In this document: piece by piece, positions 30,786-59,384 of the stretch
How the letters are laid out: each line of letters starts with the position of its first letter
Numbering within the stretch: position 1 is the stretch's first letter
Assembly: GCA_021464245.1 (NCBI GenBank)
Contig: JADCRB010000028.1
Coordinates: 6,761,612 to 6,825,611 of the forward strand
Direction of reading: 5' to 3'
Length of the DNA stretch: 64,000 nt
From: Carallia brachiata
Lineage: Eukaryota > Streptophyta > Magnoliopsida > Malpighiales > Rhizophoraceae
Notes under the pieces: generated by a model
The model's database searches: none
What the model was told of the DNA's origin: nothing
Seen by the model: the letters and a program-made list of their open reading frames with translations, nothing else
Program-made: the position numbers and the translations under genes

Positions 30786-33700
30786 ATGGACTTAGCTCAC
30801 ATGGAGAATTTTAAAATTCTATGTTGGAATATTAGAGGAGCAGGCAATGCAAGTGCGAAAAGGCATTTAGCCCATTTGGTGAGAACCCATCGTCCCGATA
30901 TGGTGTTCATCATGGAGACTCACATTCCATTTTCTAAAGTGGAGCGTAAGTGGGAGTTTCTTGGGTTTGATAAAAATATTATCTCAGACCCATGTGGTTT
31001 TGCTGGGGGTATATGGGTCCTCTGGAAGAGCAGAAAGTTAGCAATTAGTCATGTTATTATTAATCCTCAATCCATTCATTTCTCCATTTCTCAGCCGGGA
31101 CGTATGGAGTGGCGGTGTTCGGCAGTTTACGCTAGCCCCACAGCGTCATACAGAGAGGCCTTTTGGACGGATAAACGGGGATTATCTGACCAGTCTAGTA
31201 CTCCCTGGTTGCTCATGGGGGACTTTAATGACATCAGTAGTCCGGCAGAGAAGAAAGGAGGTCGCATTTATTATAATCGTATTAAGAAGTTTGTTGACAA
31301 TGTTGAATACTGTGGGTTTCAGGACTTGGGATTCAAAGGTCCCTTTTTTACTTGGCACCAGACGGAACATGGGCGGGTTGTGATATCAGAAAGGATTGAT
31401 CGAGCTCTTGCCACGGAAGATTGGAGATCCATGTTCCCTGAGTGCTCTTTGGTCGTATTGCCCCGGACTCACTCGGACCACCACCCTCTGCTGCTTGTCT
31501 CGGGATATCCCACTGAACGTCTCCCCCGACCCTTTCGCTTTGAAGCTGCTTGGCTAACACATGAAAATTTTCCTGAGGTTGTCCGGCAGGCTTGGGGGAC
31601 GAACTGCATTCCCATCCATGAGAAATTGGAGGCTGTCCAACATGCAGCAGTAGAATTTAACCAGAGTGTCTTTGGTAACATTTTTCGAAGAAAAAGGCAG
31701 CTCCAAGCGAGAATTAATGGGATTCAAATGGCTCTAGAGTACTATCAAGACCCCTTCCTTGTTGCTTTGGAGAAGAGGTTACTTTCAGAATTCAACCTGG
31801 CTCTTAGGCAAGAAGAATTGTTATGGTTCCAAAAATCCCGGGTCCAGTGGCTGCAACTTGGAGATAGAGGAACGCGTTTCTTTCACGCGTCAACTATTGC
31901 AAGATGCAAAGCTAACAAGATTGAGGGTCTGCGGTTGGCAAATGGAGTATGGAGTTATGACCAGCAGGCGATCAAAACGAACGTACTGGAGCATTTTCGT
32001 CACATTTTTTGCTCCACAGAAAATATTTCCCAATTCCCCACCATTGAGAATCACCCCGTACTTTCGATAGATCAGCAGCAGAGCCTCTTGCAACCGGTCT
32101 CCTGTGAAGAAGTCCGCACTGCTCTTAATGCTATGAAATCATTCAAGGCACCTGGCCCTGATGTCTTCCAACCAATTTTCTTCAAGACATATTGGGATCT
32201 TATTGGGAATGATTTGGTAAGGCTGGTTCAGAAGGCTTTTCTAACAGGAAGATTTGATGCGAAATTGTCGGAAACATTGGTCTGCCTTATTCCGAAAATG
32301 GAAAATGCAGATACCATATCCAAGTTTCGACCCATCTCACTTTGCAATGTGGCCTTTAAGCTTATAACTAAAGTCTTGGTGAATCGGGTGCGCCCCTTTC
32401 TTGATGATATTATCAGTCCTCTGCAGGGAAGCTTTATTCCGGGGAGATGCTCTTCTGATAATATTGTTGTTGCCCAGGAAGTTATGAATTATATTAAGAG
32501 AACAAAAAGCAAGAAGGGAGCTATGGCTTTTAAAATCGATCTAGAGAAAGCGTATGACCGGGTTGACTGGACCTTCTTGCGTCAGACGCTGCATGATTTT
32601 GGCTTCCCAGATGCCACTGTTAATCTCATAATGTTCTGTGTTTCAAGTTCGTCGTTGATGGTTTTGTGGAATGGGGCACGGTTGGAGACGCTCACACCAC
32701 ACAGAGGACTGCGCCAGGGAGATCCACTATCTCCATATTTATTCCTTATGTGCATGGAGAAGCTTTCTCTGCTTATTCAACAGCTGGTTAATCACCGGGT
32801 ATGGAAGCCGATTAAGTGTAGTAGAGGGGGTCCTTCTATTTCTCACTTACTATTTGCTGATGACTTAATGATTTTTGCTCAAGCAACGATGGAGCAAGCT
32901 CGTGCCATTCGATCTACTCTAGATAATTTTTGTCGGGCTTCGGGGTTCAAGATTAACGATACTAAGTCCAGGGCCATCATTTCCAATTATGTCCCGCGGG
33001 AGACCGTTCGAGGCATTAAGCGAGTCAGCAAGTTCTGCTTCGCTACTGACATGGGAGCGTATCTGGGAAATCCACTTTCTCAGAACCGAAGAAATAGAGC
33101 TACATATGCCTACATTTTGGATAAGGTACGCCAAAAACTAAGCGTGTGGAAATCTAAGCTTTTGAACTTAGCTGGGAGAGTAACTCTAGCTCAAAATTGT
33201 CTTGCTTCAATTCCCATCTATACGATGCAAACCGTCTGGTTGCCAGCTTCTATTTGTGATGAGTTAGACCGGATAACACGCAGATTTATTTGGTCATCAG
33301 ATCACGACAAAAAAGGAGTTCACTTGGTTAGTTGGGAAGTGATAACTCGCCCGAAATTTTGAAGGTGGCCTTGGATTGAGACAGGCACGTTGGAATAATA
33401 TTGCTATGTTGGGGAAATTATGCTGGGATATACTGTGTAACAAAAACAAAATTTGGGTCTCAATGCTCCGACATAAATACTGTGATTCCTCTCGTGCTAT
33501 GGTCCCGTGTAACTCTCATGCATCAATAACCTGGAAATCAATCACTCATTGTTTTGCTCATTTAGAAGATGGGTTTGGAATCCGGGTGAGCAACGGTAAC
33601 AGCACTTCCTTATGGCATGACAGGTGGCTGCTGGGCAAGTGCCTTGCTGAGATGGTGCCAATGATTGACCCAAGAGAACTACATGCTAAGGTCAGTCACA

Positions 33701-40084: not shown

Positions 40085-40500
40085 CTTTATTTAGGCACTA
40101 GTGCTGTTGCATAAATCATTGTTGAGCAGACAAATAAATTATTTAGCTTTATTTTACCATCCTCCGAATTAGTTAAGTCATCATAATGTTTAAATTATAA
40201 ATATACTTATCTATCATAGACAATGTTACATGACAAATTTTGGATCAACCTGAACAAGCAAATGAATTATTTTACTTTATTTCACCATCGCCCAAATTAT
40301 TTAAGTTATCATTAAGCTTTAAATTATGATTAACTTTCCTATCATAGGCAATGCTACTCGTATGACTCATTTTGGGGCGACCTGAGCAAAAAAATGAATT
40401 ATTTAACTTGATTTCTGCATCGCCCAAATTATTTAAGTTATCATTAAGCTTTAAATTATAATATGCTTTCCTGTCATAGTATATGACAAATTTTGCAGGG
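40085..40500. repeat. Three tandem units of about 120-140 bp
   Basis: The phrases GAGCA..CAAATGAATTATT, CATCGCCCAAATTATTTAAGT, ATCATTAAGCTTTAAATTAT and TTTCCTATCATAG recur three times in a row. The third unit is the left end of the large tandem duplication and recurs at 53731-53844. Older single copies lie near 25210 and 26450. Confidence 0.75.
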
Positions 40501-41414
40501 ACCACGAATAAAAGAAATGTTACGAGAAAACAAGAAGATTCCTATCAGATACAGCTGAGAGGCCGCTACTATAAACCTCGAGATGAGATGGGGAGATTCA
40601 ATCTCATATTTCATTTAGAGTTTTATTATATTATTGTATTTTATATAATATTAAAATAATTATATAATTTATTTTATAATTTTTAATAATTTATTTATTT
40701 TTTAAATTTTTTTAAATTTATTTTATTAACAACTTATATCATCTTAATACTACTTAATCTGATATAAAAAAATCCATCAAATATTTTCCTTGCATTTGTA
40801 GATTATTTTATTTTTTCAATTCAGATAAATTTTAAAAAAAATAATAAAATAAAATAAGGGAACCCATGTACCCGAATTAGACTTATGGGACAACGGTTCG
40901 CCTAATTTTTTTTTATAATTCTTTAATGGGTGGGTGTTATCCCAACCCGCCGGTCCCAGAGAGAGAAAAAGAATCATAATAATAATAATAATAATAAAAT
41001 AAAGACGCAGGGGGTGGGCGGCTTTTTAAGGGCCATAGCCCGTAGCCAATAGCGATGGTTGTCGGCAGCTTACAATAAACTAAAGAAGATAAAAGAGTTT
41101 AAAAATTATTTTCTGGTTAGCAAGCGTGGTCCGTTTCAGCGATGCACCAAATTAAAAAATAATAATAATATGGTAAAGAAAAAGAGGAAAATTACTTAAA
41201 ATAAGTTTGCTACCTACTCTTGCAGACACAAGATTATTATTAAGTTGATAATTATGAAAAAATTTAAATCTAAATTAATAATAAAAAATAGTTCAAATAA
41301 AATCGATACCCTTAAAAGAGTAAATGAATAAGCCAATAACGTTAAATCATTGTCAATTAAAAAATATATGTATTTAATGTGACAAAATTCACTTATTTTA
41401 ATTAATATTTTATA

Positions 41415-43090: not shown

Positions 43091-43894
43091 TGTAACGGGT
43101 AAATTTTGAGCCTGTAACAGTTAGACTAAAAAATACAAAAAACAAATTAAATATAAAAATTTAAAATTTATGCGGGTTCGATCTCTGGGTAGATCCTCCG
43201 ATTAATACTCCTGTGTAATTTAATCAATGGCCGTGAAGGCTTAATCTTGACTGAGAGATGTTGAATTTCCACAGCGTGATCTTGAACTGTAGGAAATGGA
43301 TTCCACTGAGGGCCGATGCTTGATCTCAAGGTGGATTAGTTGAACTCCGGTGAGGGCCGTAGGAGGCTTGATCCCACTGATTGAATGGATTCCTACTCGA
43401 ATTGGATGGACTCCGGTAAGGGCTGTAGGAGGCTTGATCCCACTCAGACTGGATGGACTTCAGTGAGGGCCGTAAGAGGCTTGATCCCACTCGAATTGAT
43501 TGGACTCCGGTGAGGGCCGTAGGAGGCTTGATCCCACTCGGATATTTAAGATTTTAATATCTTGGATTTTTAATCTAGCGGATCCAACTCAGTGGCAGCT
43601 ATAGAGCATACACCCAAAATATTTAGAGAGAAAGAAAGAATGGAAAATTTTAGAAGAGAGGATTTTGCTTTTCATCCTATCCATTCAAAAGATTGGAGGG
43701 GGTGCTTATTTATAGGAGTTCCCTTCTCGTGTGAAAGCATGCGTGCAAAAGGAATAAGTCGACTTTTCCGTGTGAAAACATGCGTGTGAAAGGAAGAAGT
43801 CGACTTTTTCGTGTGAAAGTATGCGTGCGAAAGGAATAAGTCGACTATTGACTTTTTTTTTTGACCTTTGACTTTTTTTTTTAATATGTTTACA
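43091..43894 (-). repeat. 3' LTR of element 1
   Basis: 804 bp; in element orientation it starts TGTAAACA and ends CGTTACA, with the standard TG..CA ends. A TATA box (minus strand TATAAATAAG) lies near 43708-43716. The part towards the CGTTACA end contains four to five imperfect direct repeats of about 40-55 bp (GACTCCGGTGAGGGCCGTAG core, 43330-43545). The U3 side has repeats around GTGTGAAAGCATGCGTG. It shares its first half with the element 2 LTR but not the outer U3 region. Confidence 0.88.
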
Positions 43895-44020
43895 AATGCC
43901 CCCACTTCAAGGGTCGGTAAGGAAGAACTTTACAGACGTGATCCGCACCGAGTCTTGAAGTCCAGTTCGAAACTTGAGATGTCTTGATGAACATTGAATG
44001 TTGAAGTCTTCTAACTTTGA

Positions 44021-44341
44021 CTATGTCTGCTGTTGTTGGATCGCAATAGGAACCCGATACGATTTTGAGAAAGTTAGCACCTCAGCCAATATAAAAATTG
44101 ACATTCTGGCTCCAGGTGCGGTCGAGCTTCCATAGCTCGCAAATGATTTTTTATATGTCTTAAAGTTCCATAGATTTGGTGTGGATGATCCGGTAGGCAA
44201 AGAACTTGAACCTTCTAATGAGGAAGGCCCAGCACTACAGAACTTCAAGACCGGTACACAGAGAGACTGACTGTAATGATGATTCCCAAGTGTGCTCCGA
44301 CGTAATGAGAGTAGTTGGAACTTCTCTGTACGTCGCCGCAT
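44021..44341 (-). pseudogene. Conserved ORF of unknown function in element 1
   Basis: 106 codons, starting MRRRT and containing NHHYSQSLCVPVLKF and APGARMSIFILAEVLTFSKSY. No family is recognised. Element 2 has the matching ORF of 144 codons (54786-55220) with most residues kept. Here a TAG replaces the TGG Trp codon of element 2, so the last 38 codons are lost. It lies downstream of the WUS-like gene in the same frame and could be a second coding segment of the cargo or of the element. Confidence 0.45.
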
Positions 44342-44744
44342 TCAAAGGAAGATTAGGATGATTGCAGCTTCTCATCCCTCTGTGATAGATGTGAATTAAG
44401 GAGAGTAGTTGGAACTCTATGACACCGATGGCGTTGGAGACTGAGTTTCGAGGGCTTTTAGGAATCCCTCGAGGAGGACTACTTCTTCTTTTCTTAGCTT
44501 GTGCGCCTCCAACTTCTTGATCAAAGAACTTTCTGAGACAAGTGCAGAGACTAGTCATTTTCTTTTTGAGAAAAAGAAGAGCTGAGGGGTGAGTATTACA
44601 ACTCAGGCATGTAAGATATATATACATACGATAAAGAGCTTTTTTTTTTGAAAAGTCAAAAAGAAGGTACGCAGAATCGAGTAGGGTCATCCACGTCCCT
44701 TTCTAGCATAAGAGATAAAAGGGGCAGCGGCTGACGCTCGTCAC

Positions 44745-44832
44745 GAAAGTCGTTACCGTGTGTTGCAGAAGTCGTTGCCGTGTGCTGCAGAAGTCGTTGC
44801 CGTGTGCTGCAGAAGTCGTTGCACCTTATCTT
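44745..44832. repeat. Four tandem copies of a 22-bp unit
   Basis: The unit AAGTCGTTGCCGTGTGCTGC occurs four times here with slight changes, just downstream of the WUS-like stop; element 2 has two units at 55570-55615. Confidence 0.8.
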
Positions 44833-44842
44833 GTCAGCCGCC

Positions 44843-45460
44843 CTAGCGGGGCCCGAGGCGCAGCTCCAAGTCAAGCTTGGCCTCGTCTGGTGGGCCGATG
44901 ATGTTGACGTCGCTGGAGCCTTCCGGCTGGTTGATACTGCTGGAATATTATAGGAAGAGAGGCAAAGTTTCGCCAGGATGACTTCTTTCTATTAGAAAAG
45001 TCTCTCCTAAACTTAAGTACTTAGGAGGGATGAACCCTTGACTGACTCCGTAAGACTACCAGGACCAGTACGCATGCTTCCACAGGCTACGACTTTGATC
45101 GTTATAGCTTGAAGAGACCATTGCAGTAGTAGAACTCAGACCTGCTTCATTTGAGGGCGAAGCTGTACCGGTGGGATCTACTATCAGAACAGCAGACTGT
45201 GCTTTGGAAAAAGCAGTTCTCAGTGCTGGTTTCTTCCTGCTTCTCCAATTCTAGAACCAATAAAACACATTTTTTCCTTCGATCGCCCCGAGCGGGCGCA
45301 GTCGTAAGATAAGTTGGTAAATCTGAGATGTATTAGGACTAATACCTCCATTGTTGTGGAAGACTTCCTCCAAAATTTGCAGTTGTGCCATGGTTGGTTG
45401 CCACCTTGTACGGGGTGACCTTTCTTCTCCCTTGTCTTGAGGTTCTGCAACTGGTTCCAT
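44843..45460 (-). pseudogene. WUSCHEL-like homeobox gene in element 1 (three internal stops)
   Basis: An ATG at 45458-45460 opens a frame of 206 codons ending at TAG 44843-44845, with no frameshift. Residues 17-75 form a WOX homeodomain (TRWQPT...QLQILEE...LRPLGAIEGKNVFYWF) of the WUS clade. The third helix is broken by CAG to TAG at 45251-45253 (WF-stop-N). A second TAG sits at a Trp codon near codon 136. The WUS-box region reads TLPLFL followed by TAA instead of TLPLFP. The C-terminus keeps an acidic part (GPPDE) and LDLELRL, an LxLxL repressor-type motif. Known WUS proteins are nuclear repressors that keep stem cells undifferentiated; whether this copy ever acted so is inference. A minus-strand TATAAAA (45549-45555) lies 89 bp upstream. 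Confidence 0.85.
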
Positions 45461-45589
45461 CTTTCTTGTGGCAGAGGAACAAAGGTCTGGTATGTGGTGA
45501 AGATCAGTTGAGACTTATGTTGGGTTTCAGACTCAAACCCTCCGTCGCTTTTATATTTTTGGACCGTTCACAGTTTATACTCATGCGGG

Positions 45590-45995
45590 CCAGGAGTTGG
45601 ATTGGATTTTGAACTTGGGTTCTGGACTGTGTCTAGAACTTGGAATTTTTGGGTTTTGGGCTTAGGTTTTATGTCTGGGTTTTAAATTGGACTTGAATTT
45701 TTGGGCTTTTTTTATTTGGGCTTTTGGATTTGGGTAGAGTGTTTGGGCTTCTGGACTTGGACTATTTGGATTTGGGGCGAGTGTTTGGGTTTTGGATCCG
45801 GACTTAATTTTCAGGCTTTTGAGTTGGGCTTGAGTTTTTTGAATTGGACTCAAGTGTTTGGGCTTAGATTTTCGGGTTTGGATTTTCGCTTGGACTTTTA
45901 GATCGAGATTTCCGAATTTTTTTTTTTTGATTTTTTTCTTCTTTTTTTCTATTTTTTCTATTTTTTTATTTTTTATTTTTTTGATTTTTTTTAAA
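45590..45995. repeat. Degenerate GGRTTTGGGC-type repeat and T-rich tract of element 1
   Basis: Short imperfect units such as GGGCTTTTGGATTTGG fill the space between the WUS-like promoter and the integrase end, followed by a long T-rich tract. The apparent lysine-rich or Pro/Lys-rich open frames here are products of the repeat. Element 2 has the equivalent at 57080-57555. Confidence 0.7.
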
Positions 45996-46001
45996 ACATA
46001 T

Positions 46002-47098
46002 TTACACATAATACTGTTTCAGAAGTTTACCATTAATCGGGCCAATTCGGACGCCTTCTTGGTCTGACAGCATGTAAGCGTTGTGAGTATAGGCCTCCTG
46101 CACTAAGTATGTCCCGTCCCATTTGGAAGTAAGCTTGTCACCAGGTCGATACTTCATGTTGATGGGCCGTCGTACTACAAGAACAAGGTTTCCAACTTGA
46201 AAAGATCGAGGGTAGACCTTGCGGTTGAACGTGTTGGTGAGTCGGGCTTGGTAGCATTCGAGTTGCTGTTGTTCTTCGAGTCTCCTTTCATCAAGGGCTT
46301 CTAACTCATCCAGACGTAGGCGAGCATTCTCCTCCTGTGTGAGTCCTTCCAGAACAGCCATGCGCAGAGATGGAATCTGTGTTTCCAACGGCAGTATTGC
46401 TTCGACACCGTAGACAAGTGAGTATGGTGTCGCCTGTGTTGGAGTCCGGTAAGTTGTACGATACGCCCATAATGCCTCCAGAATTCTGTCATGCCAATCT
46501 CTTTTGGATTTAGAGACTATCTTCCGCAATAGGTTGCATAAGGTCTTGTTGAATGCTCAGCCAAGCCATTTGCTGGGGCATTGTACATGGATGACTTGTA
46601 CTGCTTGAACTTGAACTTGAACATCTCGCAGAGCTTGTCGATCAAGCTGTTGTAGAACTGCTTGCCATTATCAGTGATGATGAATCGAGGGACTCCATTG
46701 CGATAGATCAGCTGAGTCCAGATGAAATTGGCAACATGCTCCTTCTTTACCTCTCTAAGTGGAATAGTTTCGGCCCATTTTGAGAAGTAATCTGTTGCTG
46801 CGAGGATGTAAAGGTGACCTAGGGATGACTTTGGCAAGGGCCCCATTAAGTCGAGACCCCAAGCTTCAAAGGGCCAGGATGAGACAGTTGGATGCAGTGG
46901 CTCCGGTGGTTGATGTATGTAATTGGCATGAAATTGACAAGCTTGACAAGTTTTAGAAAACTCATTGGAATCACGTACCAACGTATCACGGCCAATAGTA
47001 TCCCATCCTTTTGAGCTGGAAGTGCAACTTAGGCCCTGATTGATGTCCGCCACAAACACCAGAATGTGCTTCAGCGAGAGCTTGTTTTGCCTCTTCAT
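46002..47098 (-). pseudogene. Integrase of element 1
   Basis: 46517-47098 carries the catalytic core: LDLMGPLP, then ATDYFSKW, ITDNGKQF and GLAE, with the three acidic residues. A frameshift just after GLAE (about 46545) leads into 46002-46529, which continues with RDWHDRILEALWAYRTT, TPYSLVYG, a GPY-like C-terminal region (LTSKWDGTYLVQEAY) and a stop at 46002. No chromodomain follows. The protein would insert the cDNA with a 5-bp stagger, as the ACAAC duplication shows. Confidence 0.9.
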
Positions 47099-47843
47099 TG
47101 CCTAGGCAGTGAAGTAAAACTCCATCAAAAGATCTTCGATGTAGAGCATCCTTGAGATATATGAAGTGGGGAGCTTGTCGTTGAATTTCTGTCTTATGAC
47201 GACGATCTTCGGGCAGCTTCCCGTGCTGTAGGTAGTCAATGATTGGTTGGCGCCAATCTTCGTCCTCCGCGAGACGTACAGATACAGCGTTGGCTGCTGT
47301 AGTTTCTTCATCATCCTTCTGTGGCACTATCCATTTCTGGCATACAGCAACAACTGTAGCCTGAATTTCTGACTTTGCAAGAGAAGTGGCCAGATTAGCC
47401 AACGCGTCTGCCTGAGTGTTTTCTCGTCGAGGCACATGCTCCAAGGTGATGCTTTCAAATTCATTCAGTAGCTGCCGAGCACGTTGATGGTAAGGCGCAA
47501 GGTCCTCTTTCTTCACGTCATACAATCCTGTAAGTTGGTTGATGACGAGCTGGGAATCTCCATGGACTTCTATAGTTGGAATCTTCATATCGACAGCCAT
47601 TTGAAGACCAATGATCAAAGCCTGGTATTCAGCAACATTATTTGAACATAACTCACCGAGAATGATAGCATATGGTAGTATTTGTCGTTGAGGAGTGACA
47701 AACACTATGCCGGCACCAGCACCATCACGCCTTGCTGCACCATCAAAGAACATCGTCCATGGTGGCAGTGTCTCAATGTAAAAGACCTCTTCATCTGGAA
47801 GATCATCTGTGAACTCCCAATCTGACGGAAGGGTGATCTGCAA
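46986..47843 (-). CDS. Archaeal-type RNase H (second RNase H) of element 1
   Basis: 285 codons open. The motifs MFFDGAARRDGAGAGIVF, ELCSNNVAEYQALIIGL, VHGDSQLVINQL and ENTQADALANLA give the catalytic Asp/Glu/Asp/Asp set. A second RNase H of this type after the ordinary RT/RNase H is a mark of the Tat lineage. It also includes the start of the integrase zinc-binding region (HSGVCGGHQSGPK), overlapping the next piece in another frame. Confidence 0.85.
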   Translation of the reverse strand: MQITLPSDWEFTDDLPDEEVFYIETLPPWTMFFDGAARRDGAGAGIVFVTPQRQILPYAIILGELCSNNVAEYQALIIGLQMAVDMKIPTIEVHGDSQLVINQLTGLYDVKKEDLAPYHQRARQLLNEFESITLEHVPRRENTQADALANLATSLAKSEIQATVVAVCQKWIVPQKDDEETTAANAVSVRLAEDEDWRQPIIDYLQHGKLPEDRRHKTEIQRQAPHFIYLKDALHRRSFDGVLLHCLGNEEAKQALAEAHSGVCGGHQSGPKLHFQLKRMGYYWP

Positions 47844-49467
47844 GGAAGTCTGCTAGAGCTTGTCCTTTGACTGCTTTTTGAGGCACGTAGACAATGTCGT
47901 AGCTTTGTAGGATTACTGCCCACTTGGCAAGTCGTCCTGACAAGATTGGTCTAGATAAGATATATTTGACAGGATCAGCTCTGGCAATGAGACGTACCGT
48001 GTGAGCTTGCATGTAGTGCCTCAGCTTGTCAATGGCAAAGAACAGTGCTAGACATGTCTTTTCAATGGGCGAATAACTCAGCTCCGGACCGTTTAGTGTT
48101 CTGCTCAAGTAGTACAGGGCAACTTCCTTTCCCTGCTCGTTTTCCTGTGCAAGCAAGGCTCCCAAAGATCTTTCCTGCGCTGCAATGTAGAGAATCAACG
48201 ACTTTCCTTGAATTGGAGCTCCCAGGACTGGTGGATTGGAAAGGTACTTCTTTATGCTCTCAAAGGCTTTGCTGCAAGCTTCGTCCCACTCGAAGTTGAC
48301 ATCCTTCTTCATCAACCGATGGAAAGGTTGACATCTCCCAGCTAAATTGGAGATGAAACGGCGAATGTAGGCCAGCTTTCCTTGTAGACTTCGCAGCTCG
48401 TGCAGGTTTTTAGGTTCAGGCATCTTTTGAATTGCCTCAACCTTTGACTGATCAACTTCGATTCCACGATGGCGCACCACGAACCCAAGAAACTTTCCTG
48501 ATGTGACACCGAATGCGCACTTGAGAGGGTTCATTTTGAGCTGATGCCTCCGAAGTCTTTCGAACACTGTCTTGAGATCCTCGAGGTGGTCTTTGCGCTT
48601 CTTAGTCTTTACAACTAAGTCATCAACATAACATTCTACAATCTTGTGCAGCATGTCATCAAAAATTTTTTGCATAGCACGTTGATAAGTGGCGCCAGCA
48701 TTTTTTAATCCAAACGGCATAACTTTGTAGCAGTATATACCTTTTGGGGTGCGGAATGCTGTCAACTCCTCGTCTTCTGGTGCCATTCTGATTTGGTTAT
48801 AGCCTGAAGAACCATCCATGAAGGACAATGCTTCGTGACCCGTTGTTGCATCGACTGTGATCTCCGTTATGGGCAACGGAAAGTCATCTTTCGGGCAGGC
48901 CTGTTAAGATCTCGAAAATCAACACATACCCTCAACTGTCCATTCTTCTTTCTTACCGGGACATGTTGGCAATCCACGTTGGGTAGGTGACCTCTCGGAT
49001 GAAGCCGCATTGATCAGCTTGTTAACCTCCTCCTCGATTTGTGGAATGAGTTCCGGGCGGAACCGTCGTTGTGGCTGCTTGACAGAACGAACACCCTTCT
49101 TTACTGCTAGACGATGCACCGCAATTTTTGGGTCAAGTCCAGGCATTTCTTTGTAACTCCATGCGAACACGTCCCTGTATTGACTTAATACCTGAACATA
49201 TTCTTGCTCTTCTTCTGCAGTAAGTAAAGCACTTACAAATGTAGGTCGAGGATCTTCCGGAGAGCCAAGATTGACCTCCTTGAGTTCATCAACAGTTGCT
49301 TGGCCACCATCTTCAAGTTCCGGGGGAGCCTCCTTCACTTCACCCTGATGAGTCGGAATCAGCCTCCTCGCTAATTGTGACATGAAATGTAGAACCTCTG
49401 ACTTCACCTTCTTTGTTTGACTGGATAAGCCTGTCTTGTTTGGTGGTGGTGGTGATGGCACGTGCAT
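47803..49467 (-). pseudogene. Reverse transcriptase and RNase H of element 1
   Basis: 48919-49467 encodes the N-terminal part, including YKEMPGLDPKIAVHRLAV and the FRPELIPQIEEEVNKLI region. A frameshift lies near 48900. 47803-48876 has FMDGSSGYNQIRMAPEDE, FRTPKGIYCYKVMPFGLKNAGATYQR, the YVDD catalytic motif (CYVDDLVVK), then FLGFVV and the RNase H domain (YYLSRTL, IEKTCLALFFAIDKLRHY, QALADFLADH). Confidence 0.9.
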
Positions 49468-50129
49468 CAGCTGCTCGGCTTCGGCTCTTTAGCGTGATCC
49501 GCACAGGTGACTTCTCCTGATAGCCTAAGCCAGGTCGGGACTGTGATGTTTGAGAAGCGGCGCCATGTGTGGACGGCAGCGTACCCATTGTGCTCGGGTT
49601 TGAGAAGTCATAGCCCGCCTTGCCAAAAGCTTGTATGCATTAGGATCAAATCCTTCATGTGTTCTTCTTTCTGGAAGTGAGCCGCCTTCGACTGCCCCCG
49701 TGTGTGGTTTGACGAAGCCTTTTAATGGTTTTGAGACAAAACCGGCTCAATCTTTGGTATCGGCAGAGTGTAAGTCTCCTTCAGGTTGTGCAGCTCCTTT
49801 GTTTGGGTTGGCTATGTCCTTGCTCCTGTTTAGATCAATACAAGAGAAAGGGGGTTGACCTTCTGAGCGTCGTGACTTCGGCACATAGCGTAGGACTGGA
49901 GTGGAGCTTGAAGATGCAACATCCTTCGGACGAAGTTCAGCAGGCTGTGGCAGCTTTTCATTTGTTGGAGCTGGGTTGGCATTGGCAGGTTCTTCGACAG
50001 CTTTTCCCTTTTTGTGGATGCCCCCAGTCCAAGTAGCTTTTGATGGAATGATCTCCGGATTGTCTGTGTCGGTGTAGAAGACTGCATCCGCCAAATGTGA
50101 TTCAGCATCATCGAACGGCTTTAAGTCAG

Positions 50130-50480
50130 CATTGACCTTTTGAACGCCACCATTGTAGTACTTGAAGCACTGATGCAGGCTTGAGAGCACAACTCCATTT
50201 CCATGAATCCACGGTCGTCCTAGCAACATCTTATATGTGGTACGTGCATCATCACATGAAATAGAGTGCTAGAAGTGAGATTACCGATAGTTAGCTCCAA
50301 GCGAATCATCCCAATTGCTTTCTGTCCTCCTTGATTAAAGCCATGAATCATCAAGCGGCTGTCTGATAATTCATCAATGCCGATGCCGAGCTCCTTTATG
50401 GTGGATTTTGGGATAATATTGACTGCTGAGCCATCGTCGATCAGAATACGTCGGACCTTCTGTTCTCACATAGCCTGATA
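50130..50480 (-). pseudogene. Aspartic protease region of element 1
   Basis: The minus strand around 50440 encodes RRILIDDGSAVNI, the DDGSA active site of Ty3/gypsy proteases, then LGI, IRLELTIG and, after a small indel near 50250, KMLLGRPWIHG, the usual closing motif. The following open frame to 49747 is a Pro/Ser-rich linker towards the reverse transcriptase. Confidence 0.75.
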
Positions 50481-50831
50481 CATACAGCGGCCGATTGTGG
50501 GGTTTGGACCCCAGCAGGAGATCCTCATCTGAAAATGAGATAGCAGAGTAACATCCGACGTGATTTTGGGCCGTTGTGCTCCGCGAGTGGAATTACTTGA
50601 TGGCAGAGGTTCAGCTGAGGTCTGGAGAGTATTGCCTGACTTGATTTTGCCACACTTCTGTTGATTGCAAACAACTGAGGGTTAGCGAGAAGGGTTTGGA
50701 GAGCTTCATATACCTTCTTTGTCGACTTTTTGTCGAGCGGCTCCTCCTTACGGTGTGTCACCTCTTCTGATGGTTTTGAAGTGATGGTGGTCTGGTTTGC
50801 CGAGGTTATGCCTTCCTGGTCCAGAATGATT

Positions 50832-52124
50832 TTATTCTGGCTTGAGCTTCATGATTAGCTCCTTCAGGACGAAACACTTCTCGGTTGGATGACTTACTAT
50901 CCGGTGATATTTGCAGAATCTCGGATCGCTGACTCGATCCTTTTCATTCGGCCGCTTGCACTCTGGGAGTTCGATCAGCTTCGCCTCCAAGAGTTGTTCA
51001 AGAATGTCGGGGACGTCTGAGTCGGGGAATGGATACTGCTTCTGCTCCAACTCTCGCAATGTCACCTTCCGCCTTTCCTGTTGTTTTGGCTGAGTTATTT
51101 GGGTCGGAGGATTTACCTTAGCTTTGCTCCCACTTTTACTGGTGCGGCTTCAACAGTCATCACTTCTTTCCTTTTCCGGAGCTGTTGGGTTTCTTAATCT
51201 CCCTTCTGCCCCCTTGCTGGTCCAACTGGATGGGAACCGTGCCTCCGGAAGTCTGGATGCTTATCTCCATATCATGTGCGCGGGTCGCCAGTTCTTCGAA
51301 GTTCGGGGTTTGACACCCTGCAGGATGTATAACAGCTCCCAATGCATTCCCTGGATGCACATCTCCACGGCAGAAGTCTCCGTCAGGCGATCTTTGCAGT
51401 CCAAGCTGAGGGCACGCCATCTGTTGATGTATTCGACAACGGGCTCTCCTTTCCTTTGTTTGGTGCTGGTAAGCTCCATCATACTTACCGTCCTTCGAGT
51501 GCTGAAAAATCTGTTGAGGAACTCTCGTTGTAGCTGTTCCCAACTGTCGATCGATTCTGGTTCAAGATTTATGAATCAGGTGAAAGCGGTCTCCCTAAGT
51601 GAACGAACAAACTGCTTCACCAAGAGATCTCCGTAAGTCTCTGCGTTGTTGCAGGTTTCAACGAAGTGGGCGATATGCTGTTTGAGATCGCCTCGTCCGT
51701 CGAATTGTTGAAATTTGGGCGGCTGGTAGCCCAAAGGCATGTTGAGACTTTCGATCCGTCTGGTGTACGGTTTGACGTACATCTGTGATCCTTGGAAGGA
51801 TGTAGCTTGTTGCAGTCGGATCGTATTGGCTATCATTTCCTGCAATTGTTGAACAGATAGCGAAGTTACAGAATTTGAGGGTGGCAGCTGTGTAGAACTA
51901 CCTGGTCGCTTTTCTGCAGTGAAGACGTCGGCTGGTGTGGCTTCTGGAGTGAAACCGGGTGGATATGGTTGCTCCTCGCAGATCTCAGGATCAATTTGGA
52001 TTGGGGCTTTTCCTTTGAGAGCGGCGATCTGTTGATCCTTTTTCTCTACAACTTTGATCAGCTGCAAAATCTTGTTCTCCAATTCTGAAATTTTTTCTTC
52101 TGTACTGGTTGTGTTGGTCATCAT
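50832..52124 (-). pseudogene. gag of element 1
   Basis: The start is at 52124 with an N-terminal coiled-coil-like part (EEKISELENKILQLIKVVEKK), then KPYTRRIESLNMPLGYQPPKF and the retrotransposon-gag core (HIAHFVETCNNAETYGD, LVKQFVRSL). A TGA near 51576 lies where related proteins have Trp. The core resumes (QREFLNRFF) and shifts frame near 51310. The 3' part at 50832-51065 has YPFPDSDVPDILEQLL and the C-x2-H-x4-H-x4-C knuckle CKYHRIVSHPTEKC. Gag forms the particle that packages the RNA. Confidence 0.85.
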
Positions 52125-52511
52125 GACGACAACAAATGAAGCTCCGCGAAAGGCAGGGGGAGAGAACTCTTCTGATTCCTCTGTGTGGATCTCTACAGAA
52201 TGAGTTGGATTCTGTTCAGCGGGCTTTGTCGTGTTGCCCCCAACTTCGATCGGGGTGGGTGATCGACTCCTCCATGCGGCAAGAGAGTCAGGGGAGAGAT
52301 CCTGTTATTGTGCGAGCTATGGACTCTCCGTTTCGATATTTTTTCAGGTTTGGACGGCAAGAAATTGTGTTCTTCTCCGGGTTTCTAGATCTGCGTACCC
52401 AGGTAGGGTAGTTGATGCAGGCAATGGAGCAGTTGCCTTTTTGTTGGTACCGGCAACTGTACTTCTCTTTGTGCGATCTTTTTCTCTTTTTTTTTCTAAA
52501 TTTTTTTTTCT

Positions 52512-52644
52512 CGACTTTTCCGTGTGAAAACTTGCGTGTGAAAGGAAGAAGTCGACTTTTTCGTGTGAAAGTATGCGTGCGAAAGAAATAAGTCGACTAT
52601 TGACTTTTTTTTTGACCTTTGACTTTTTTTTTAATATGTTTACA
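52512..52644 (-). repeat. Truncated 5' LTR of element 1 (133 bp)
   Basis: Only the outer 133 bp matches the last part of the full LTR (about 43762-43894). The rest of the LTR, the primer-binding site and the start of the leader are missing. Since the outer end and TSD are intact, the loss is an internal deletion after insertion. Confidence 0.85.
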
Positions 52645-53730: not shown

Positions 53731-53844
53731 CTGAGCGAAAAAATGAATTATTTCTGCATCGCCCAAATTATTTAAGTTATCATTAAGCTTTAAATTATAA
53801 TATGCTTTCCTGTCATAGTATATGACAAATTTTGCAGGGACCAC

Positions 53845-54773
53845 TGTAACGGGTAAATTTCCGAGCCTGTAACAGTTAGACTCAAAAATACAGAAACAAA
53901 TTACAATAAAAAATTGTAAAATAAAAAGAAATTTATGTGGGGTCGATCTCTGAGTAGATCCTCCGATTAATGCTCCTGTGTAATTTAGTCAAGGGCCGTG
54001 AAGGCTTAATCTTGACCGAGAGATGTTGAATTTCCACAGAGTGAACTTGAACTGTAGGAAATGGATCCCACTGAGGGCCGAGGCTTGATCTCAAGTGGAT
54101 TAGTTGAACTCCGGTGAGGGCCGTAGGAGGCTTGATCCCACTCGGACTGGATGGACTTCGGTGAGGGCCGTAGGAGGCTTGATCCCACTCGAACTGGATG
54201 GACTCCGGTGAGGGCCGTAAGAGGCTTGATCCCACTCGGATATTTAATATCTTGGGTTTTTGATCTAGCGGATCCAACTTAGTGGCAGCCAGAGAGCATA
54301 CACCCAAAATATTTAGAGAGAGAAAGGAAGAGATGCAAAGCTTTAGAAGATGAGATTTTTGCTTTGCATGGGATGCATTGAAAGGCTTTGAGGGGATCCC
54401 TATTATAGGGTTTTGGGGGAGGATGGATGCCAAAATTGTATACTTGGATCATACATGGCAAGGGCCCTCTTTGGTGGTTGAATTTTGACATTTTGCAATC
54501 AAATGGAAAGATGAATCATATGATCCTACATGGCAAGGCCCTCTTTGGTGGTTGAATTTTGACATTTTGCAATCAAATGGAAATTAAAATTTCCATATGA
54601 TTCATCATGAGTAGGATCCTACATGGCAAGGACCCCTTTGGTGGTTGAATTTTGACATTTTGCATGGTCATCAACCAAATGGAAATCATCATTTTCATAT
54701 GCATGCACGTTGCTTCATGTAGGGCATGCATTGATTTTTTTTTTTTTTTTTTGTAATTTTTTTGGTGTTTACA
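53845..54773 (-). repeat. 3' LTR of element 2
   Basis: 929 bp with TGTAAC.. and ..TTTACA plus-strand ends. It contains three repeats of about 41 bp (54110-54240), a TATA region near 54400 that has lost one base compared with the other LTR, and U3 repeats of the TACATGGCAAG/CCTCTTTGGTGG type. Confidence 0.9.
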
Positions 54774-54785
54774 AATGCCCCCACT

Positions 54786-55220
54786 TCAAGGGTCGGTAAG
54801 GAAGAATTTTACAGTAATGATCCGAACCGAGTCTTGAAGTCCAGTTTGAAACTTGAGATGTCTTAATGAACGTTGAATGTTGGAGTCTTCTATCTTTGAC
54901 CATGCCTGCTGTTGTTGGATCGCAATAGGAATCTGATACGATCTTGAGAAAGTTAGCAGCCCAGCCAATATAAAAATTGACATTCTAGCTCCAGGTGCAT
55001 TCGAGCTTCCATAGCTAGTAAAGGCTGACAAAGGTTCTTTGAAGTTCGAAAGCTCTGGTGAGGATGATCCGGTAGGCAAATAACTTGAACCTCCCCAAGA
55101 GGAAGGCCCAGCACCTCGGAACTTCAAAACTGGCACACAGAGAGACTGACTGTAGTGATGATTCCCAAGTCTGCTTCGACGTAAGGAGAGTAGTTGGAAC
55201 TTCCCTGTACGTCGCCGCAT
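54786..55220 (-). CDS. Conserved ORF of unknown function in element 2
   Basis: 144 codons from MRRRT to FFLTDP. It matches the 106-codon ORF of element 1 (44021-44341) over NHHYSQSLCVPVLKF, APGARMSIFILA and IPIAIQQQQ. No family is recognised, no signal peptide or transmembrane segment is clear; it is Ser-rich with a short hydrophobic stretch (MSIFILAGLL). It ends about 10 bp from the 3' LTR, so it lies in the usual position of extra ORFs in plant Ty3/gypsy elements. It could also be chance coding potential of a conserved non-coding region. Confidence 0.45.
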   Translation of the reverse strand: MRRRTGKFQLLSLRRSRLGNHHYSQSLCVPVLKFRGAGPSSWGGSSYLPTGSSSPELSNFKEPLSAFTSYGSSNAPGARMSIFILAGLLTFSRSYQIPIAIQQQQAWSKIEDSNIQRSLRHLKFQTGLQDSVRIITVKFFLTDP

Positions 55221-55634
55221 CCAAAGGAAGATTAGGATAATTGCAGCGTCTCATCGCTCTGTGGTAGATGTGAACTAAGGAGAGTAGTTGGAACTCCATG
55301 ACACCGAAGGCGTTGGAGACTGAGTTTCGAGGGCTTTTAGGGATCCCTCGAGGAAGACTACTCCTTCTTTTCTTAGCTCGTGCGCCTCCAACTTCTTGAT
55401 CGAAGAACTTCCTGAGACAAGTGCATTCTTTTGAGAAAGAAGAGCTGAGGGGTGAGTATTACAACTCGGGAATGCAAGATATATATATACATACGATAAA
55501 GATTTTTTTTTTTTTTGGAAAGTCAAAAAGAAGGTACGCAGATTCGAGTAGGGCCATCCACGTCCCTTTCCGTGTGCTGCCAAAGTCGTTGCCGTGTGCT
55601 GCCAAAGTCGTTGCACCTTATCTTGTCGGCCGTC

Positions 55635-56258
55635 CTAGCGGGGCCCGAGGTGCAACTCCAAGTCAAGCTCGACCTCGTCTGGTGGGCCGATGATGTTGAC
55701 GTCGACGTCGACGTCGCTTTCCAGCTGGTTGATGCTGCCGGAATAGTCTGGAAAGAGAGGCAAAGTTTCGCCGGAATAACTCCTTTCTGCTAGAAAAATT
55801 CCTCCTAGACTTAAGTACCTAGGAGGGATGAACCTTTGGCTGACTCCGTAAGACCACTAGGACCAGCATGCATGCTCCCATGGGCTACGACTTTGATGAA
55901 CATACCGTGGAGAGACCATTGCAGTGGAAGAACTCGGACCTGTTTCATTTGAGGGCGAAGCTGTACCGGTGACATTTATTATCGGAACGACAGACTGTTC
56001 TTTGGAAAAAACAGTTCTCAGTGCTGGTTTCTTCATGCTTCTCCGATTCTGGAACCAATAAAACACATTTTTTCCTTCGATTGCCCCGAGCGGGCGCAAT
56101 CGTGAGACAAGTTGGTAAATTTGAGATGCACTAGGAATAATACCTCCATTGTTGTGGAAGATTTCCTCCAAAATTTGCAGTTGTGCCACGGTTGGTTGCC
56201 ACCTTGTGCGGGGTGACTTTTCTTCTCCCTTGTCTTGAGGTTCTGCAACTGGTTCCAT
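55635..56258 (-). pseudogene. WUSCHEL-like homeobox gene in element 2 (one internal TAG)
   Basis: ATG at 56256-56258; 208 codons in one frame to TAG at 55635-55637, with a single in-frame TAG at 55857-55859 (codon 134). Residues 17-78 are a WOX homeodomain: TRWQPT in the N-arm, QLQILEE in helix 1, SQIYQL in helix 2, IEGKNVFYWFQNRR in helix 3, a WUS-clade signature. A WUS-box TLPLFP is at residues 165-170 (55749-55766). An acidic stretch (DVDVDV, GPPDE) follows, and LDLELHL at 198-204 (55647-55667), an LxLxL EAR-type motif, near the end. This is the full domain order of WUS but in a protein shorter than plant WUS (about 290 residues) and without introns, as expected after passage through RNA. 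In this family the homeodomain binds DNA and the last two motifs recruit TOPLESS-type corepressors. The stop separates the homeodomain from the repressor part; readthrough, truncation or inactivity are all possible. Confidence 0.88.
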
Positions 56259-56346
56259 CTTTCTTGTGGCAGAGGAGCAAACGTCTGGTATGTGGTGACG
56301 ATCGATTGAGACTGATGCTGAGTTTCAGACTCAAACCCTCCGTCGC

Positions 56347-56353
56347 TTTTATA
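56347..56353 (-). promoter_or_regulatory. TATA box of the element 2 WUS-like gene
   Basis: Minus strand AATATAAAAGCG, 89 bp upstream of the ATG, with no other ATG in between on that strand. Element 1 has the same box at 45549-45555 at the same distance. It resembles the repeated TATAAAAGGCG of the array upstream. Confidence 0.6.
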
Positions 56354-56503
56354 TTTTTGGGCCGTTCACAGTTTATACTCATGCGGGCCAGCAGTTTGTT
56401 TGCTGGATTGTTGAGTGTTTGGATTTTGTGTTTGGACTTTGACTTTCGCTTGGGCTTTCAGATCGGGACTTCCGATTTTTTTTTTTTTTTTTTTTGTGCC
56501 GTT

Positions 56504-57060
56504 CACAGTTTATACTCGTGCGGGCCAGGAGTCTAGCTTGCTGGATTGTTCGCCTTTTATACTCGTGCGGTGCAGGAGTGTGCTGTAGTTGATTGCCTTT
56601 TATACTCGTGCGAGGCAGGAGTGCTGAACTGTGGTGTCGCCTTTTATACTCGGGTGAGGCAGGAGTGTGCTGCTGTTGATCGCCTTTTATACTCGTGCGA
56701 GGCAGGAGTGTGCTGTAGAGCTGTTCGCCTTTTATACTCGTGCGAGGCAGGAGTGCTGAACTGTATTGCATTGATTATCGCCTTTTATACTCGTGCGAGA
56801 CAGGAGTACGTTGTAGAGCTGTTCGCCTTTTATCTCGCGAGGCAGAGTGCGCTGTAGAGCTGTTCGCCTTTTATACTCGTGCGAGGCTGGAGTGCTGAAC
56901 TGTTGATCGCCTTTTATACTCGTGCGAGGCAGGAGTACTGAACTGTTGATCGCCTTTTATACTCGTGCGAGGCAGGAGTGCTGAACTGTGGTGTATTGAT
57001 TATCGCCTTTTATACTCGTGCGAGGCAGGAGTGTGCTGCTGAACTGTTGAGCTGGTGAGC
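56504..57060 (-). repeat. Array of about 11 tandem TATA-containing units upstream of the WUS-like gene
   Basis: Units of 41-53 bp share CGCCTTTTATACTCGTGCG followed by AGGCAGGAGTG, with variable spacers built from GCTGAACTGTTGAT-type sequence. On the minus strand, the sense strand of the WUS-like gene, each unit reads CACGAGTATAAAAGGCG, a canonical TATA core. Element 1 has only a single related unit (45548-45600: TTTATACTCATGCGGGCCAGGAG). The array therefore grew in the element 2 lineage. One unit (about 56823-56863) has small deletions that spoil the TATA. Confidence 0.9.
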
Positions 57061-57079
57061 TGCTGAGTTGTTGACTTGG

Positions 57080-57555
57080 ATTCTGATTCAGGGTTTAAAC
57101 TTTGCCCCCGAATCTGGATTTGGACTTTGAGTTGGAACTTGGATTTGGGCTTTGAGCCCGAGTTTAGATTTTGTGAATTTGGGCTTTAGGCTGGGGTTTG
57201 AGTTTAGGCTTTTTGGGCCTGGATTTGAATTTGGGCTTGGATTTGAATTTGGGCTTTAGGCCCGAGTTTGAATTTGGACTTGGATTTTGAACTAGAATTT
57301 GGGTTCGGGCTTGGATTTTGCCCCCGAATTTGGATTTGTTGGGTTTTGAATTGGGGTTTGAGATCTGCCCCCGAATCTAGATTTGGATTTTGAGGAAGGG
57401 TTCTGAACTTGCACATAAGTTTTAGACATTTTTTTTTCTTCTTTTTTTTTTTCCTCTTTTTTTTGGCTTTTTTTTTTCGTGCTTATTTTTTGTTTTTCTT
57501 TTTATTTCCTTTTTTATTTTTCTCTTTTTTTTGCCTTTTTTTTGTTTTTTTTTTT
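57080..57555. repeat. Degenerate GGATTTGGGCTTTG repeat and T-rich tract of element 2
   Basis: Imperfect units of GGATTTGAATTTGGGCTT type to about 57420, then a T-rich tract. The matching region in element 1 is 45590-45995. No coding meaning is seen. Confidence 0.7.
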
Positions 57556-57559
57556 GTTT

Positions 57560-57700
57560 TTACACAGTAAATTTTAGAAGTTTACCGTTTGATCGAACCA
57601 GGTCGGGATGCGTTGACAGCATGCAAGCGTAATTGACGTAGGCTTCTTGAACCAGGTATAGCCCATCCCAGTTGGATGTGAGCTTGTCGCAGAGTCGGTG
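57560..57700 (-). pseudogene. C-terminal remnant of integrase in element 2
   Basis: The minus strand reads CDKLTSNWDGLYLVQEAY and NGKLLKF, matching the last 45 or so residues of the element 1 integrase. Just upstream, sequence related to the gag 3' part (CAGTTGGACCAGTAGAGGG-like) is joined to it, marking the internal deletion that removed gag-pol. Confidence 0.8.
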
Positions 57701-57980
57701 CTTGTGTCCCTCTACTGGTCCAGTTGGATGAGAACTGTGTTTATGCACGAGTTTGCGAACCTACGTACTCAAGTAGGATGATTAATGCAGGCGATTGAGC
57801 AGTTGTCCTTTTACTGGTGGCGATAGTCTTGTTCATCTTTAGTGCCACCGATGCGCCGGATTCCTACCCTCTAGAGTTGTGTTGGTGTTGGCCATTTCAC
57901 GGCCCATAGGCCTTGAAATGGCCGTTGTGCCACCAACTTTTTTTTTTTTTTCTAAGGAGCAAAAGATGGGAGGTAGAGAT

Positions 57981-57998
57981 GTCCCACCGAGCGTGCCA
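57981..57998 (-). other. Primer-binding site of element 2
   Basis: Six bases inside the 5' LTR the minus strand reads TGGCACGCTCGGTGGGAC, starting TGG as needed to pair with the CCA end of a tRNA. I do not assign the tRNA species. Element 1 has lost this region. Confidence 0.65.
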
Positions 57999-58004
57999 AA
58001 AATT

Positions 58005-58941
58005 TGTAACGGGTAAATTTCCGAGCCTGTAACAGTTAGACTCAAAAATATAGAAACAAATTACAATAAAAAATTGTAAAATAAAAAGAAATTTATGTGG
58101 GGTCGATCTCTGAGTAGATCCTCCGATTAATGCTCCTGTGTAATTTAGTCAAGGGCCGTGAAGGCTTAATCTTGACCGAGAGATGTTGAATTTCCACAGA
58201 GTGAACTTGAACTGTAGGAAATGGATCCCACTGAGGGCCGAGGCTTGATCTCAAGTGGATTAGTTGAACTCCGGTGAGGGCCGTAGGAGGCTTGATCCCA
58301 CTCGGACTGGATGGACTTCGGTGAGGGCCGTAGGAGGCTTGATCCCACTCGAACTGGATGGACTCCGGTGAGGGCCGTAAGAGGCTTGATCCCACTCGGA
58401 TATTTAATATCTTGGGTTTTTGATCTAGCGGATCCAACTTAGTGGCAGCCAGAGAGCATACACCCAAAATATTTAGAGAGAGAAAGGAAGAGATGCAAAG
58501 CTTTAGAAGATGAGATTTTTGCTTTGCATGGGATGCATTGAAAGGCTTTGAGGGGATCCCTATTTATAGGGTTTTGGGGGAGGATGGATGCCAAAATTGT
58601 ATGACTTGGATCATACATGGCAAGGGCCCTCTTTGGTGGTTGAATTTTGACATTTTGCAATCAAATGGAAAGATGAATCATATGATCCTACATGGCAAGG
58701 GCCCTCTTTGGTGGTTGAATTTTGACATTTTGCAATCAAATGGAAATTAAAATTTCCATATGATTCATCATGAGTAGGATCCTACATGGCAAGGACCCTC
58801 TTTGGTGGTTGAATTTTGACATTTTGCATGGTCATCAACCAAATGGAAATCATCATTTTCATATGCATGCACTTGTTGCTTTCATGTAGGGCATGCATTG
58901 ATTTTTTTTTTTTTTTTTTTGTAATTTTTTTGGTGTTTACA
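58005..58941 (-). repeat. 5' LTR of element 2
   Basis: 937 bp, differing from the 3' LTR at only about ten places, most of them single-base gaps or T-run length. Minus-strand TATAAATAGG near 58558-58567 is the likely promoter of the element. Near-identity points to a recent insertion. Confidence 0.9.
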
Positions 58942-59384
58942 GAATAAAGAAATGTTACGAGAAAACAAGAAGATTCCTATCAGATACAGCTGAGAGGCCG
59001 CTAAATATAAACCTCGAGATGAGATGGGGAGATTCAATCTCATATTTCATTTAAAGTTTTATTATATTATTGTATTTTATATAATATTAAAATAATTACA
59101 TAATTTATTTTATAGTTTTTAATAATTTATTTATTTTTTAAATTTTTTTTAAATTTATTTTATTAATAACTTATATCATCTTAATACTACTTAATCTGAT
59201 ATAGAAAAATCCATCAAATATTTTCCTTGCATTTGTAAATTATTTTATTTTTTCAATTCAGACAGATTTTTAAAAAAATAATAAAATAAAATAGGGGAAC
59301 CCATGTACCCGAATTAGACTTATGGGACAACGGTTCGCCTAATTTTTTTTTTTATAATTCTTTAATGGGTGGGTGTTATCCAAC
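58942..59384. other. Unit B intergenic DNA, no gene
   Basis: AT-rich sequence matching 40503-40940 of unit A at about 95% by eye. Confidence 0.6.

Follow-up and report, generated by a model that had tools for sequence, protein, structure and literature searches.

The window is a 64,000-nt stretch of contig JADCRB010000028.1 of Carallia brachiata, whose 337.5-Mb genome is assembled in 164 contigs. It contains two related LTR retrotransposons, E2 and E1, each of which carries a WUSCHEL (WUS)-like gene. The features of the two elements are as follows.

53845..58941, minus strand: E2, an LTR element without gag-pol and with a WUS-like gene (LTR pair, TG..CA ends)
53845..54773, minus strand: 3′ LTR of E2
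55635..56258, minus strand: WUS-like ORF of E2 (207 codons and a stop)
55647..55667, minus strand: EAR-like LDLELHL end of E2, downstream of the in-frame stop
55749..55766, minus strand: WUS-box TLPLFP of E2 (match to a WUS profile, residues 161-179), downstream of the in-frame stop
56016..56210, minus strand: homeodomain of E2, codons 17-81 (Pfam PF00046, E 6.9e-12, residues 17-77)
56509..57048, minus strand: tandem repeats of ~44 bp in E2, upstream of its WUS-like gene
57614..57703, minus strand: integrase C-terminal remnant of E2 (tblastx match to E1 46065-46154, 70% over 30 aa)
57733..57840, minus strand: remnant of the pre-gag leader in E2 (tblastx to E1 52363-52470)
58005..58941, minus strand: 5′ LTR of E2
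43091..52644, minus strand: E1, a diverged member of the same family with pol and a WUS-like gene (target site duplication (TSD) ACAAC)
43091..43894, minus strand: 3′ LTR of E1
44843..45460, minus strand: WUS-like ORF of E1, with three in-frame stops
46002..47098, minus strand: integrase of E1, in two frames (Pfam rve 1.5e-9 at 46517-47098, upper frame only)
46986..47843, minus strand: second RNase H (RVT_3) of E1, a Tat mark (Pfam 1.1e-24)
47803..48876, minus strand: reverse transcriptase and RNase H of E1 (Pfam RVT_1 1.3e-30, RT_RNaseH 1.9e-23)
52511..52644, minus strand: truncated 5′ LTR of E1, ~134 bp (97% over 137 columns to 43759-43895)

The E2 frame begins with MEPVAEPQ and ends with LDLELHL. 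A first-pass annotation had proposed that it has the layout of WUS, with a homeodomain, a WUS-box and an LxLxL end, and this is borne out on the minus strand by Pfam, by the WUS structure 6ry3 and by a profile set against shuffled sequences. The homeodomain matches 6ry3 with E 4.8e-18 and STENOFOLIA with E 8.7e-16. A profile made from 120 host proteins to represent WUS gives 83.6 bits at the homeodomain and 4.0 bits at the WUS-box, and the C-terminal part that includes the box scores 6.7, compared with 6.1 for the top of 2000 shuffles. The EAR-like end aligns with WUS C-termini in the open copies of the gene. In E1 the homeodomain is recognized at Pfam E 2e-6. The annotation was mistaken in describing one continuous frame in both elements (208 and 206 codons): E2 has a single in-frame stop, at codon 134 of 207 (55857-55859), and E1 has three. 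A plus-strand gene at 55635-56258 was considered and rejected, as that strand holds six stops. By eye, an inverted repeat, CCTCCTAG..CTAGGAGG, lies at about nt 433-458 of the WUS-like ORF, adjoining recurrent one-base indels.

The domains of E1 run along the minus strand in the order reverse transcriptase (RT)/RNase H (48876-47803), second RNase H (aRH; 47843-46986) and integrase (47098-46002), and the WUS-like gene follows in sense orientation between the integrase and the 3′ LTR, at the same relative place as in E2. The two genes are 88.5% identical in DNA and 79% in protein, and their 3′ flanks are 88.9% identical; such alike genes with shared flanks indicate that both elements inherited the gene. 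The placement between integrase and 3′ LTR, which the annotation had claimed for both, thus stands for E1, while in E2, from which gag-pol is missing, it hangs on the 30-residue integrase remnant. Pfam gave no gag match in the scanned frames of E1 and E2, and the gag-like frames of E1 were named by place and by eye. A single unit related to the E2 tandem repeats lies at 45549-45597 of E1.

The LTRs of E2 are 98.9% identical by BLAST, with 5 substitutions in 929 columns. Compared with E1 by tblastx, its interior is reduced to scraps of the leader, a 14-residue gag match and the 30-residue integrase C-terminus, which leads us to read E2 as a probable deletion derivative, young and non-autonomous. 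Both window elements are decayed members of their family. E1 is flanked by its 5-bp TSD, with an empty paralogous site at ~60743. No TSD was found for E2, though its flanks match an uninterrupted paralogous site near 40505 up to both LTR ends; inspected by eye, the ends lie at 53840-53849 and 58937-58946 and the empty site at 40495-40515.

The surrounding DNA holds a segmental tandem duplication of 96-98% identity (40506-40947/58942-59385, 42625-43090/60283-60748 and 52644-53731/60743-61847), one copy of which holds E1 and the other E2, so that each shows the empty site of the element that its partner holds. Sequence of NBS-LRR-type resistance genes lies in tandem at 5611-20214 (73-82% alike, frames broken), adjoined by LRR and NB-ARC domains at 20869-23359; the nearest proteins to this NBS-LRR neighbour are from Pistacia and Hevea, at 51-52%. 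An ORF of 858 codons at 30786-33362 was named by eye from its translation as a LINE-type endonuclease-reverse transcriptase.

We searched the genome with E2 residues 1-133, the part before its stop. This gave 1999 candidates; the 150 that were scored all share 85-100% identity with these residues, and in 121 of them the matched part is free of stops. Thirty-five rows have an identical score of 257.6 bits and are probably a young burst; among 12 copies picked for this one score, 11 have exactly the same sequence over 399 nt. A 30-mer of the homeobox, present in 40 of the 43 copies aligned below, has 659 matches in the genome at ≤2 mismatches. Its reversed control has 0, and a chance motif was rejected on this count.

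Twenty of these loci were extended to 10-kb stretches picked by the gene, comprising 12 of the 35 same-score rows and 8 others. The WUS-like gene lies downstream of an integrase in all 20, and RT, second RNase H and integrase stand alongside it in 19. Partial LTR pairs, found in 8 of the 20, have K values of 0.002-0.082. One locus, L036, has a partial LTR pair with K 0.048, yet its WUS-like gene equals that of the young copies over 399 nt; it may be a recombinant element or a product of gene conversion. As a gene-independent sample, a search with a piece of the integrase gave 150 scored matches of 2034 candidates, and the 30 hits on contigs C1-C48 were examined. At least 17 of these 30 have a same-strand copy of the gene 0.2-1.6 kb further downstream. 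For the other 13, no gene is present among the perfect 30-mer matches and scored protein matches, and some of them may truly be without it.

By a motif test, one frame runs from the start through the box to the end in 16 of the 43 aligned copies, while LPLFP is found in some frame in 34 and the EAR-like end, as a loose motif, in 41. The twelve burst copies (L031-L042) carry 5-20 one-base indels per 3.7 kb of the pol region. The number of indels is independent of that of substitutions (11 in a copy with 6 substitutions, 13 in a copy with 247), and assembly errors may account for many of the frameshifts, among them the recurrent ones close to codon 146 of the gene.

The search for further LTR copies with the homeodomain that the first-pass annotation had suggested therefore reveals a large family. 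Its central claim, that an LTR family gained a WUS-type gene before its subfamilies split and kept it, is supported by the hundreds of copies, by the place of the gene in all 20 extended loci and in at least 17 of the 30 integrase hits, by the 121 of 150 stop-free matches and by the scarcity of shared amino-acid changes in the homeodomain described below. Against its being kept stand the E1-E2 pair, which shows no constraint, and three stops that are each common to two copies. The 659 homeobox matches and the 20 extended loci also exclude that the gene is absent from all other copies of the family.

We then compared the gene with WUS/WOX proteins. In a search over 5.8 billion proteins, all of the best 120 of 414 hits (565 candidates) have WUS-type homeodomains, and the best identity among these 120 is 53% where the match spans the homeodomain. 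When five open genomic copies and a fragment served as queries instead (206 hits, 7992 scored candidates), the best 120 gave the same picture. No close relative of the element gene appears among annotated proteins of other species in the best 120 of each search, and a scan of viral contigs gave no relative. Over 63 positions the element homeodomain is at most 52% identical to WUS/WOX, compared with a median of 94% for 500 random pairs of the listed host proteins.

The homeodomain of E2 has the length of that of WUS, aligning ungapped to WUS and with one gap to STENOFOLIA; the rows for other WOX proteins are provisional. BLOSUM scores are 170-184 for seven WUS rows and 111-146 for the other, provisional WOX rows. 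In homeodomain trees of 65 columns, the branch of the element measures 1.67-1.82 and no sister group is resolved, and placements with WUS and with other modern, intermediate and ancient WOX proteins all pass the AU test (p 0.19-0.36; other WOX rows provisional). The trees thus favour no placement, and the grouping with WUS-clade proteins that the annotation had expected is left to the score, the WUS-length homeodomain, the box and the end of the protein, which together favour a WUS identity.

Helix 3 of the element homeodomain ends in RRSxKK in place of HKARER. The domain keeps 15 of 17 WOX-invariant positions versus 17 of 46 others (p 3e-4; other WOX rows provisional), which fits a homeodomain that kept working along its long branch, either in the element or in some host source. 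An AlphaFold model of an open copy has a mean pLDDT of 61 as a whole and of 92-95 in blocks over residues 21-70, with helices at 24-36, 44-57 and 62-76. The best PDB match of the modelled homeodomain is that of WUS on DNA, 6ryd (TM 0.93 by target length). The base contacts of WUS include R38, Q89, N90 and R94 in the available part of the structural report (PMC7203112). R38, Q89 and N90 are present in E2, and the place of R94 is taken by Met in E2 and by Arg in further aligned rows.

The best host WUS match in the genome, on C90, comes in two pieces (residues 4-106 and 152-280) that lie 867 nt apart, with 45 unmatched residues between them. So long a distance for 45 residues suggests that host WUS is probably interrupted here by an intron. 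The element gene is uninterrupted from homeodomain to box, and this difference from the two-piece host match makes capture through a spliced WUS-type mRNA likely. Eight further loci, at 59-71% identity, look like host WOX genes (C65, C40, C108, C77, C113 (twice), C78 and C101). Among them, the second WUS-like host locus at C65:260958-261347 is 71% identical to a Pterospermum WUS-type protein over residues 3-123, and it is a possible candidate for the source of the captured gene.

Selection on the gene was assessed in 43 aligned copies, made up of 30 scored-match loci including E2, 12 of the extended loci and E1; 32 are distinct over 399 nt. Variants shared among copies stem mostly from replicating lineages and singletons mostly from the time after insertion, and the neutral ratio of nonsynonymous to synonymous changes (N:S) is about 2.4:1. 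In the homeodomain (codons 17-81), variants shared by at least 2 of the 32 distinct copies are 3N:12S (omega 0.11, p 8e-5 versus neutral), those shared by at least 3 are 2N:8S (omega 0.11, p 0.0015) and those shared by at least 4 are 1N:8S (omega 0.05, p 4e-4). Singletons of the same region are 19N:15S (omega 0.53). This scarcity of shared amino-acid changes points to selection on the homeodomain protein while the family spread.

Several comparisons bear on how far this signal reaches. In the linker (codons 82-133), shared variants at cut-offs of 2, 3 and 4 are 18N:9S, 5N:6S and 2N:3S (omega 0.81, 0.34 and 0.27) and singletons are 29N:20S (omega 0.58); the contrast between homeodomain and linker is significant at cut-off 2 only (p 0.009, versus 0.36 at 3 and 0.51 at 4). 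Shared variants differ from singletons in the homeodomain with p 0.03 at cut-off 2 and 0.07 at cut-off 3, and over the 133 codons with p 0.16. As a control, RT in 19 of the extended loci has omega 0.28 for shared variants and 0.98 for singletons, and the WUS-like gene in the 20 extended loci has 0.44 and 0.33. Singletons of the gene, at 53N:37S, are low as well. Copies picked by protein similarity to the window gene will have fewer amino-acid changes in all classes, singletons included, and this choice could inflate the selection signal. The pair E1-E2, which was not chosen by similarity, has omega 0.76 with differences of 28/26/16 by codon position and gives no sign of constraint. Three in-frame stops in the homeodomain are each common to two copies (L018/E1 at codon 70, L020/L028 at codon 49 and L027/L029 at codon 28); elsewhere these pairs show 41, 10 and 15 differing sites, respectively. 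Such sharing may mean that broken copies multiplied or that mutation struck each site twice.

We propose that the spliced mRNA of a WUSCHEL-type gene was captured, in sense orientation between integrase and 3′ LTR, by a Ty3/gypsy element of the Tat lineage whose second RNase H is placed as in the Ogre/Retand type. The family would then have multiplied, carrying the homeobox to at least 659 places in the genome, with the homeodomain kept by selection. The element would make a small WUS-like protein with a homeodomain, a WUS-box and an EAR-like end, which would bind WUS-type sites and act on transcription in the cells that express the element. Its target could be the promoter of the element itself or host genes, pushed toward a state that favours spread. 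Taken as a whole, the account of capture, selection on the homeodomain and a protein acting in favour of the element is the one we regard as fairly probable.

Meristem cells that lead to the germ line would be the most plausible site of such action. This route is attractive because subepidermal stem cells give rise to germ cells, as described in the available part of PMC7560203; a meristem or germ-line advantage is nevertheless speculative. A stronger version holds that the family uses a captured and maintained WUSCHEL-type regulator on the stem cells of the shoot meristem, enlarging or reprogramming the pool from which the germ line arises or lifting its own silencing there, and so biases its own inheritance. 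We judge this to be quite improbable; if true, the family would be the plant parallel to a retrovirus with a cell-fate gene as cargo.

Much of the same evidence could be read without any benefit to the element. A host WUS copy transduced once could hitch-hike as a passenger of no use, its open frames owed to a recent burst. Near identity of the young copies (11 of 12 same-score copies over 399 nt) would be expected under this account, as would the lack of constraint in the E1-E2 pair, the three stops each common to two copies, the broken genes of E1 and E2 and the 13 integrase hits, of 30, for which no gene is listed. However, the homeodomain is short of shared amino-acid changes at every cut-off, with omega of 0.05-0.11 at or below that of RT (0.28). 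The family also predates the burst, as indicated by the LTR pair of L048 (K 0.08) and the 79% protein identity of E1 to E2, and still many of the scored matches are open copies. A useless passenger is an unlikely explanation. A separate insertion of a host gene into two elements by chance, by comparison, has next to nothing to recommend it: every one of the 20 extended loci has the gene in the same position, its flanks are common to E1 and E2, and there are 659 homeobox matches. It was rejected on these grounds.

Two other explanations are closer to the captured and selected gene that we favour. The constraint may predate capture, if a divergent host WUS paralogue was taken whose pattern of core residues had been set in the host gene. 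This is compatible with our preferred account and would explain why no host protein is near (best 53% spanning the homeodomain, among the best 120 of each search) and why the branch of the element homeodomain is so long (1.67-1.82), and the C65 locus, 71% identical to the query WUS, is a second WUS-like gene in this genome. It leaves the few amino-acid changes among the element copies unexplained, and we lean against it as the full answer. Alternatively, in a variant of the favoured account, the protein could work on the element itself, its homeodomain binding the LTR or 3′ region of the element, as suggested for TRP28 of Retand, with cell fate untouched. Retand elements usually encode, between pol and the 3′ LTR, accessory proteins that may bind DNA, according to the available part of PMC11963269, and E2 retains three of the WUS contact residues (R38, Q89 and N90; PMC7203112, in part). 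A plain count, however, gave no TTAATGG, TGAATGA or TCACGTGA in E2 or in the LTRs of E1 and E2. TTAATSS occurs 5 times in E2 and 1-2 times per LTR of E1 and E2, raw counts that decide nothing. We consider this variant possible but on the doubtful side.

The extra ORFs of plant LTR elements are mostly without known domain or function, as far as the available parts of PMC6317226 and PMC9289625 describe them. No WUS or homeodomain cargo of a transposon was found in the open-access literature searched. The words homeobox, homeodomain and homeo have zero occurrences in the texts examined on extra ORFs or gene capture, and homeobox, WUS and WOX are absent from the available text of a 2026 review of gene capture (PMC13317346). 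Within this literature the WUS cargo is new, whereas extra ORFs in Tat elements and captured genes are already known. In this family the extra gene is related to one of the most closely studied regulators of plants and bears, in its DNA-binding domain, signs of protein-level selection inside the element, which makes the role of extra ORFs in plant retrotransposons directly testable. It also raises the question of whether mobile elements manipulate meristems, the seat of the future germ line (PMC7560203, in part). The accessible sections of PMC9289625 report a domain of the cytokinin-activating LONELY GUY type in Gypsy elements from two Citrus species and, when a filter is left off, from Populus trichocarpa; it would be a second cargo tied to meristem signalling. 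For annotators, the family is a warning that WOX-like hits can be transposon genes.

In form alone, E2 resembles the oncogene-transducing retroviruses, which have lost gag-pol and kept a host-derived regulator between intact LTRs; the gene of E2 is interrupted. Among plant elements, E1 belongs with the Tat lineage of Ty3/gypsy, having reverse transcriptase, RNase H, integrase and the second RNase H between RNase H and integrase that marks Ogre and Retand (PMC6317226, in part). The family further shares with these Tat elements both an extra ORF and tandem repeats in the stretch between integrase and 3′ LTR, and members without coding domains, features described in the available sections of PMC6317226 and PMC11963269. 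In the Retand clusters covered there (PMC11963269), sense ORFs of this region are without known domain, and the domains that are recognized, mostly TRP28, lie in antisense, whereas the ORF described here is in sense and encodes a WUS-type homeodomain. Pfam gave no TRP28 in the ten scanned frames of E1 and E2, a set outside which the antisense frames between pol and the 3′ LTR fall, and no PMD, a domain reported as frequent in Ogre (PMC6317226, in part), in the same ten frames.

Gypsy elements of Phalaenopsis likewise keep a host-type gene as an extra ORF, in that case an AlkB-type m6A demethylase (PMC9289625, in part); their cargo is an enzyme, and that of the present family is a transcription factor. 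The same source describes a screen of 121 angiosperm genomes for 15 domains, of which its available text names PMD, G-patch, AIR1, DUF1409, YgdH/LONELY GUY, L26, B3, ArgoL2 and 2-ODD and does not contain ‘homeo’. Maize Bs1 and other transducing plant LTR elements also hold host coding sequence between their LTRs. Bs1 carries segments of three host genes, none of them full-length, in the available account (PMC13317346), whereas a regulator with a nearly full WUS layout is present here in hundreds of copies. With the WUSCHEL/WOX factors themselves the element gene has in common a WUS-length homeodomain, a WUS-box, an EAR-like end and, in the predicted model, the WUS fold; it differs from them in its low homeodomain identity (at most 52% over 63 positions), in the RRSxKK end of helix 3 and in residing within a mobile element.
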